DNA from: Geovibrio thiophilus
GTDB lineage: Bacteria > Chrysiogenota > Deferribacteres > Deferribacterales > Geovibrionaceae
Length of the DNA: 64,000 bases
Assembly: GCF_004087915.1 (NCBI RefSeq)
Contig: NZ_CP035108.1
Span: forward strand, 2,108,001-2,172,000
Direction: 5' to 3'
Position 1 is the stretch's first letter, and each line of letters opens with the position of its first letter. Below, piece by piece: positions 22,863 through 24,111 of this stretch. The position numbers were made by a program, and so were the translations under genes. A model generated the notes under the pieces. That model did no database searches. It was given only the letters and a program-made list of their open reading frames with translations, and was not told where the DNA came from.

Positions 22863-22894
22863 TGTTGATTCACCCCAATATATCGATAGTTCGT

Positions 22895-23253
22895 AAAAAC
22901 TTACATCCTGTAGTTTTTTTCAGCAAGCTCGGAACAGAAACCGCTGGAACCTAAGCTGCGGTTTTCTCACTCGCAGTCAGCAGAGCAAAGCTCCTTGCTG
23001 CTCTCGCTTCACTGGAACCTTGCAGAATACTCTGCTCCGGTTCGTTCCGCGGGCACATCAGTGTGCCTTGGAAGGAAGCCTGCTCTTTCTTCTATCTGTA
23101 CCTTTTAACTGTTGAGAGCCTCAGCACCGTTCACGATGTCAAGAATCTCCTGTTTTAACGGCACAAAAACAACGTCCTGTGTTTTTGTGCTACACGCTCG
23201 CGCCGTGGTAAACACGGCTTCGCTGCGCACGGCGAAGGTACATCCTGTACCTT
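22895..23253. repeat. Mosaic of hairpin elements between atpD and atpG
   Basis: Two members of the hairpin family lie in this gap. At 22895-22918, AAAAACT and AGTTTTT enclose the apex TACATCCTGT. At 23161-23253 there is a complete element: hairpin 1 (GCACAAAAAC arms, apex AACGTCCTGT, 23161-23190), hairpin 2 (GCCGTG, gtaaa, CACGGC, 23202-23218) and hairpin 3 (AAGGTAC, ATCCT, GTACCTT, 23235-23253). Between them lie other stem-loops, for example GGCACA-tcag-TGTGCC near 23051-23066 and AAACCGC with GCGGTTT near 22938-22965. No coding frame fits. Confidence 0.75.
23098..23149 (-). pseudogene. Duplicated 3' end of atpG
   Basis: 52 bases here match 23247-23298, the end of atpG, with a single mismatch. 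The copy still encodes EILDIVNGAEALN followed by Ser and a stop codon, where the intact gene has Gly and a stop. The two copies are 149 bases apart and flank a complete hairpin element, so the duplication and the element belong to one event or series of events. Confidence 0.85.
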
Positions 23254-24111
23254 TTAACCGTTGAGAGCCTCAGCACCGTTCACGATGTCAAGAATCTCAT
23301 TGGTGATTGAAGCCTGACGCACTTTGTTGTAAGTGAGTGTCAGCTTGCCGATCATGTCGGATGCGTTTCTGGACGCATTGTCCATAGCCATCATCCTTGC
23401 GCCGTGCTCACCCGCTGTGGATTCAAGCAGTGCCTGAAAAATCTTGTAGCGGATGTATCTGGGCATAAGTTCGTTGAGGAGCATTTCCGGCTTGGGCTCG
23501 TAGATGTACTCCACAAGCTGCTCGCCCGCTTCCTCAACCTTCAGGGGAAGCAGTTTTTCCGTAACGGGTGTCTGGGAAGCTGTTGATCTGAACTCGTTAT
23601 AAAGTACATAAACATCACTTATACCGCTGTTAAGATACTGCTCCACAACAACATCGGCTATACCCACCGCGTCACTGAAAAGAACCTTGCCTGCGAAATC
23701 GGCATATTTTTCAATTATATCAAAGTTTCTCTTTCTGAAAAATTCGTAGGCTTTCTTGCCGATACAAACAAGCTTAACCTTTTTGCCCGGATGCTCGGAA
23801 GCGAATCTGGACACGGCTTTCAGAATATTGTTGTTGAAAGCGCCGCAAAGTCCTCTGTCGCTCGTCACGACTATAAGACCTATAGTATCCGCATTTTCAT
23901 TGCCAGAGAGAAACGGGTGGAGCTCGGGGTTAGCTCGCTGAGCAACATCGTGCACCATCTCCGTAATCTTGCGGGCAAAGGGTCTGGCGGCTGCCATGGC
24001 GTCCTGCGCGCGGCGCATCTTCGCAGCGGAAACCATTTTCATGGCTTTCGTAATTTTCTGCGTGTTCTTTACGGATGCTATTTTGCGTTTTATATCACTG
24101 GTTCCGGCCAT
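23254..24111 (-). CDS. atpG: F1F0-ATP synthase gamma subunit
   Basis: 285 residues, normal length. N-terminal DIKRKIASVKNTQKITKAMKMVSAAKMRRAQ and C-terminal RQASITNEILDIVNGAEAL match the two long helices that form the central rotating shaft. The last 52 bases of the gene and its 3' border are duplicated 149 bases downstream. The stop codon lies at the edge of hairpin 3 of a repeat element, whose right arm begins just past the stop. Confidence 0.95.
   Translation of the reverse strand: MAGTSDIKRKIASVKNTQKITKAMKMVSAAKMRRAQDAMAAARPFARKITEMVHDVAQRANPELHPFLSGNENADTIGLIVVTSDRGLCGAFNNNILKAVSRFASEHPGKKVKLVCIGKKAYEFFRKRNFDIIEKYADFAGKVLFSDAVGIADVVVEQYLNSGISDVYVLYNEFRSTASQTPVTEKLLPLKVEEAGEQLVEYIYEPKPEMLLNELMPRYIRYKIFQALLESTAGEHGARMMAMDNASRNASDMIGKLTLTYNKVRQASITNEILDIVNGAEALNG

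Follow-up and report, generated by a model that had tools for sequence, protein, structure and literature searches.

A hairpin repeat element with a duplicated atpG end between atpG and atpD of Geovibrio thiophilus, from an apparently lineage-specific repeat family

The insert found between the atpG and atpD genes of Geovibrio thiophilus is probably a genus-specific, non-autonomous MITE-like hairpin element, which would insert with duplication of a stretch of host flank (F) and form arrays by exchange between the F copies. As in MITE-like elements, the copies are dispersed, target-site duplications accompany them and empty sites occur in related genomes, whereas the ragged right end, unlike that of a typical transposon, counts against MITE-like insertion. 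The hairpin repeat family is apparently lineage-specific and undescribed until now; among open-access papers, nothing was found that deals directly with repeats in this genus or with long duplications made by small bacterial elements. The stretch of DNA analysed (the window, 64,000 nucleotides) corresponds to positions 2108001-2172000 of the single-contig genome of 3.0 Mb, and two genomes of the same genus, G001 and the sister G002, were used for comparison.

The atpG-atpD junction

The stop codon of atpG and the start codon of atpD are separated by 391 nt. The corresponding spacing is 393 nt in G002, 101 nt in G003 and 92 nt in G001, and it falls to 11-33 nt in another 21 relatives belonging to the same family or order, which bears out an earlier note, made from the window sequence, that had called the gap highly unusual. 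These lengths also exclude the case in which all relatives would have the same gap without the element. By sequence comparison, the atpG-atpD gap is derived. G002, the only relative with a similar gap, carries the same insertion with 95% identity, and in G001 only a degraded piece consisting of the left arm and loop of hairpin 1 (CAAAAACAACGTCCTG) is found, directly before the atpG end. The element at atpG probably predates the split of the three species and later decayed in G001.

The earlier note had described the operon as interrupted by a repeat element, and this is correct for the spacing, in which the element is present, but not otherwise, as the atp genes are all intact and collinear. 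The 138-aa ORF downstream of atpD (21037-21453, minus strand) is taken to be atpC. The most likely consequence of the insertion is neutral or mild, i.e. a longer intercistronic spacer with no gene broken.

The direct repeat at atpG measures 54 bp, with 53 of the 54 positions identical and a spacing of 149, and thus exceeds by 2 bases the 52 bp reported earlier (23098 and 23247). As also stated there, a complete hairpin element (23150-23253) lies between the two copies, D1 and D2, and the atpG stop codon (read as TTA, 23254-23256) sits at the edge of hairpin 3, which it directly abuts (Table 1). The last 45 nt of D1 are a copy of the stop codon and the last 14 codons of atpG. Two points were absent from the earlier description: a type-B element in the left part of the gap, and the fact that D1 opens with hairpin 3's right half. 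The type-B element makes up the larger share of the remaining gap and contains a nested module (CAGCAAGCTYGG..).

In relatives of the subtype to which the atpG element belongs, hairpin 3 reads GGCACATCCTGTGCC, and the CTGTACC of the atpG repeat is for this reason most likely derived from the element. With half of hairpin 3 at the start of D1, the atpG site is probably the leftover of a two-unit array (E-F-E-F, E being the element), the first element of which has mostly been lost. D1 and D2 differ at one site within each species and two species-specific sites are common to both copies, a pattern that, in small numbers, suggests continuing exchange between them.

Table 1. Features of the atpG-atpD junction and arrays of the same family in the window
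Feature	Position	Strand	Description
atpA	24123-25634	-	From the ORF list
atpG (gamma)	23254-24111	-	Stop codon 23254-23256; C-terminus EILDIVNGAEALNG kept in relatives
atpD (ATP synthase beta)	21456-22862	-	ORF; protein 97-99% identical in same-genus genomes
Type-B hairpin element, second and larger	22883-23067 (approx.)	+	Hairpins 22895-22918 (left) and 23051-23067 (right)
28 nt between type-B element and D1	23068-23095		Unassigned
D1, left repeat copy	23096-23149	+	9 nt = right half of hairpin 3, then 45 nt of atpG end
Element left end	23150-23159	+	Consensus TGACTTAYMR-like
Hairpin 1	23160-23191	+	GGCACAAAAACA(ACGTCCTG)TGTTTTTGTGCT
Conserved core with hairpin 2	23193-23234	+	CACGCTCGC[GCCGTGGTAAACACGGC]TTCGCTGCGCACGGCG
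Hairpin 3	23235-23253	+	AAGGTACATCCTGTACCTT; abuts atpG stop codon
D2, right repeat copy	23245-23298	+	Starts within hairpin 3; 23254-23298 = true atpG 3' end
Array of the same family	11673..12223	+	4 elements; 1 complete in sister G002
Array of the same family	45266..45759	+	4.4 units; ~1.4 in sister G002; begins at ORF end

The element family

At least 92 BLAST matches to the atpG element were obtained in the genome, and a pattern search gave at least 111 copies in 47 clusters, many of them tandem. The family plan consists, on the left, of a TGACTTA-like end and hairpin 1, in which the stem varies and the loop, most often ACATCCTGT, is conserved, and, on the right, of A-CACGCTCGC, hairpin 2, TTCGCTTCGCACGGCG and hairpin 3 with a loop around CATCC. 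The left end is precise and the right end ragged, and clear terminal inverted repeats are not seen. A scan of 84,980 species genomes, which left out the window's own genome, gave the exact core pattern in Deferribacterales bacterium Deferri_01 alone, and the core was absent from the 37 other relatives searched, the matches of which covered the atpG end only. From these searches the family appears confined to one genus. The idea that the stems are copied from the target DNA as a general rule was discarded, as identical stems recur at unrelated sites (subfamilies).

The constant part of the tandem units is the element of ~95-110 bp, to which a variable host flank is added, and the units range from 89 to 234 bp genome-wide. 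A single amplification mechanism had been suggested for the arrays of the window. The same family does build the other arrays (Table 1), but the similar unit lengths on which the suggestion drew (149, 145-146 and 113) are not in themselves evidence, given the genome-wide range. The duplication of the atpG end is real and not specific to ATP synthase; gene-end duplication is family-wide and affects many other genes.

Duplicated flanks and empty sites

The ends of the elements were trimmed before the left and right host flanks of each cluster were compared, and 600 pairs of left and right flanks taken from different clusters served as control, with a mean best match of 7. A direct repeat scoring at least 15 (18-59 bp) was detected between the host flanks of 9 of the 47 clusters versus one of the 600 control pairs, and in 7 of these 9 clusters the distance between the end of the left F copy and the trimmed boundary is 0-2 nt. 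The trimmed atpG repeat scores 41, far above the control, and a chance relation between its two copies is thus excluded. F measures 26-45 bp at clean sites; at three sites of more complex history, atpG among them, it is ~45-59 bp. Further F-E-F sites are present in G001 and G002.

For four of the insertions an empty site with a single F was identified in a related genome. G002 has, with seamless flanks, a single F of 43 bp at a gene end (L030), of 30 bp at a gene end (L035:4509) and of 44 bp at a gene start (L035:5670), and G001 has a single F of 29 bp (L035:2985). Several arrays contain n elements and n+1 F copies, as expected if exchange between F copies expands F-E-F. Array size differs between the species, with 4.4 versus ~1.4 units at 45266 and 4 versus 1 complete element at 11673. 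No long host repeat is present in the remaining 38 of the 47 clusters; for these, one has to suppose that F was lost or that insertion took another form. G002 is devoid of the leading F at the 13172 site, and some F-E-F structures may thus have arisen by decay of tandem duplications and not as footprints of insertion. Microhomology at the array junctions gave a mixed result.

At L124 of G001 (minus strand, ~4456-4800), the duplicated flank is the beginning of a fliM-like gene (MADILSQEEIDALLS; 44 nt counted from the ATG), and the array has a truncated start of this gene on one side and a complete one on the other. L132 of G001 and L163 of G000 have an insertion in common, and their flank copies are more alike within than between species, which would be another sign of exchange between flank copies.

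Position relative to genes

The element is antisense in 21 co-directional gene pairs and sense in 7 (binomial, ~p = 0.01), and in 13 of the 28 clusters with an antisense gene ending at most 150 nt to the right the stop codon lies 19-30 nt from the core, i.e. at or just past hairpin 3; these counts are a lead rather than a result, as the ORFs were crudely called and the test was set after the pattern had been seen. Placement at gene ends is compatible both with selection for sites where no harm is done and with a function as a 3' mRNA barrier.

Stem conservation and folding

In a helix maintained as RNA, G-U pairs would be expected in excess on one strand. The 108 distinct stems of hairpin 1 are 94% Watson-Crick, with 27 G-T and 16 A-C among 1153 pairs, and all four pair types occur at nearly every stem position; hairpin 2 has 3 G-T and 6 A-C among 432 pairs. 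As G-T is nearly as rare as A-C, the stems point to palindromes maintained at the DNA level more than to an RNA helix. Such stems can arise and persist through template switching in replication (PMC8794818), so that covariation alone is no proof of a functional RNA. The element folds better than shuffled sequences (z -4.1), and folding as single-strand DNA is equally extreme.

Search for mobilising enzymes

Neither Y1 transposases/RAYTs (PF01797) nor DDE_Tnp_1 (PF01609) nor reverse transcriptases (PF00078, RVT_1) had a match in the genome, while 5, 9 and 3 control genomes, respectively, were positive. Similarly, the IS110 Transposase_20 domain had no match in the genome and the control genomes were positive. 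In the search for Y2 transposases, the control gave no signal.

Origin of the insert

According to the favoured explanation, the element would enter near gene ends, after which the host stretch would stand on both sides of it (F-E-F). Unequal homologous exchange between the F copies would then produce the arrays and keep the F copies alike, and the stems would be kept perfect by selection or repair acting on DNA palindromes (template-switch homogenisation) and not as RNA. At atpG, an E-F-E-F array would have lost most of its first element, and an element of the second type would also have inserted. A directly comparable intermediate for this history is found near 9400 of G002:C4 (E-remnant-F-E-F), where the first element lacks everything between the apexes of hairpins 1 and 3, F-E-F comes next, and there is no leading F. 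An oddity of one locus would in this way become a testable rule for gene-end duplications and tandem arrays, namely flank-duplicating insertion followed by flank exchange. More tentatively, and with considerable doubt on our part, the element might spread without the usual transposases, by template switching at DNA hairpins during replication or by some nuclease, its fixed left end being joined to a target often ending in TC, with 26-45 bp or more of host DNA duplicated.

A purely local tandem duplication is rather unlikely but the strongest of the rival explanations: the element would have inserted without target duplication, and later copying by slippage or illegitimate recombination, followed by partial deletions, would have left F-E-F. 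The missing leading F near 9400 of G002:C4, the half hairpin 3 with which D1 opens and the variation in unit length all speak for it. However, the four loci with seamless outer flanks and a one-F empty site would each require a precise loss of the first element, and F nearly always ends at one fixed point of the element. An insert that serves as a functional RNA between atpG and atpD, as mRNA stabiliser, attenuator or regulator setting subunit ratios, is unlikely to a greater degree. The strong covariation of the stems, the folding score, the antisense excess in co-directional pairs and the frequent position of hairpin 3 directly after a stop codon are all in line with such a role, but G-T and A-C are about equally rare, so that neither strand resembles an RNA helix, and the folding is as extreme for single-strand DNA. 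Moreover, a search of the atpG-atpD gap gave no terminator-like site, Rfam gave no match in the window at the gathering threshold, and most of the element has disappeared from the same place in the close relative G001.

Movement of a REP/REPIN-type element by a RAYT, or by a different IS200/IS605 transposase that works on single-stranded hairpins, is very unlikely. Two end hairpins in the same orientation with a common loop motif do resemble the ends of IS200/IS605, and the stems are conserved at the DNA level, but no Y1 transposase was found in the genome, with controls positive, and IS200/IS605 transposition leaves no target duplication, whereas the duplications seen here are long. Finally, a chance repeat or an assembly artefact is refuted, as the independent sister G002 has the same structure with 95% identity and the repeat scores far above the cross-cluster control; we assign practically no probability to it.

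Comparison with known repeats

Mycobacterial MIRU/VNTR loci are short tandem units of variable number located between co-transcribed genes, near stop and start codons. The present arrays resemble them in that the tandem copy number varies between species (4.4 vs ~1.4 units, 4 vs 1 element), and differ from them by strong covarying hairpins and by a unit of which part is local host DNA and varies from site to site. BOX, ERIC and Correia-type MITE-like elements are small, modular, palindromic and non-coding. Internal module insertions, as in L047 and L050, are a common trait, but the sequence and module plan are different and the arrays described here repeat the element plus host flank.

Like REP/REPIN-RAYT systems and GTAG/CGTC-tagged palindromic repeats, the element is abundant, extragenic, palindromic and often grouped. 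Unlike REPs and REPINs, it is ~100 bp long, has three hairpins in the same orientation with variable stems and conserved loops, is accompanied by long flank duplications and has no RAYT. The GTAG/CGTC tag, a REP feature, was not noticed at the listed element ends. CGTC REPs are also known without a known transposase (PMC3733652).

A bacterial precedent is provided by IS1549 and IS1634, the direct repeats of which are long and variable (8-514 bp), and no mechanistic model has been proposed for them (PMC2266710). The insertions described here share such long direct repeats of variable length with these IS elements, which are full IS with a DDE transposase, whereas no DDE_Tnp_1 match was found here and clear terminal inverted repeats are not apparent in the element. 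For long target duplications of variable length in bacteria, a mechanistic model has so far been lacking (PMC2266710), and this genus provides dozens of examples, several of them with empty sites.

Other observations

Type-B elements are located in both rRNA operons, two per operon (L042-L046; G000:C1 ~2287173-2287880 and 2848411-2849118); of the two, one adjoins a tRNA-like gene upstream of the 16S end, and the relatives of the window's type-B element include copies beside 16S rRNA and in another spacer of both operons. A module of ~45 nt (CAGCAAGCTYGGWACAGAAACCGCYGG...) occurs inside the type-A elements L047 (G000:C1:852589) and L050 (843780), and also in the type-B element of the window (~22921-22965); neighbouring array units of L050 differ by its presence. 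A separate repeat resembling CGTC-tagged REPs (GCGTCATTGCGAACCCTGAAAGGGTGAAGCAATCTC) is often found in array spacers, e.g. at 11673-12223 and in many others. In G001, the arrays L107, L108, L112, L113, L115, L117, L121 and L128 have a solitary terminal hairpin 1, and thus n cores and n+1 copies of hairpin 1. At L160 (~4100-4570) of the same genome, a different tandem array was detected, the units of which start with TCTCACGGGAGAACTTTTTGGAACAAAG..., and a hairpin element lies nearby in the other two species.
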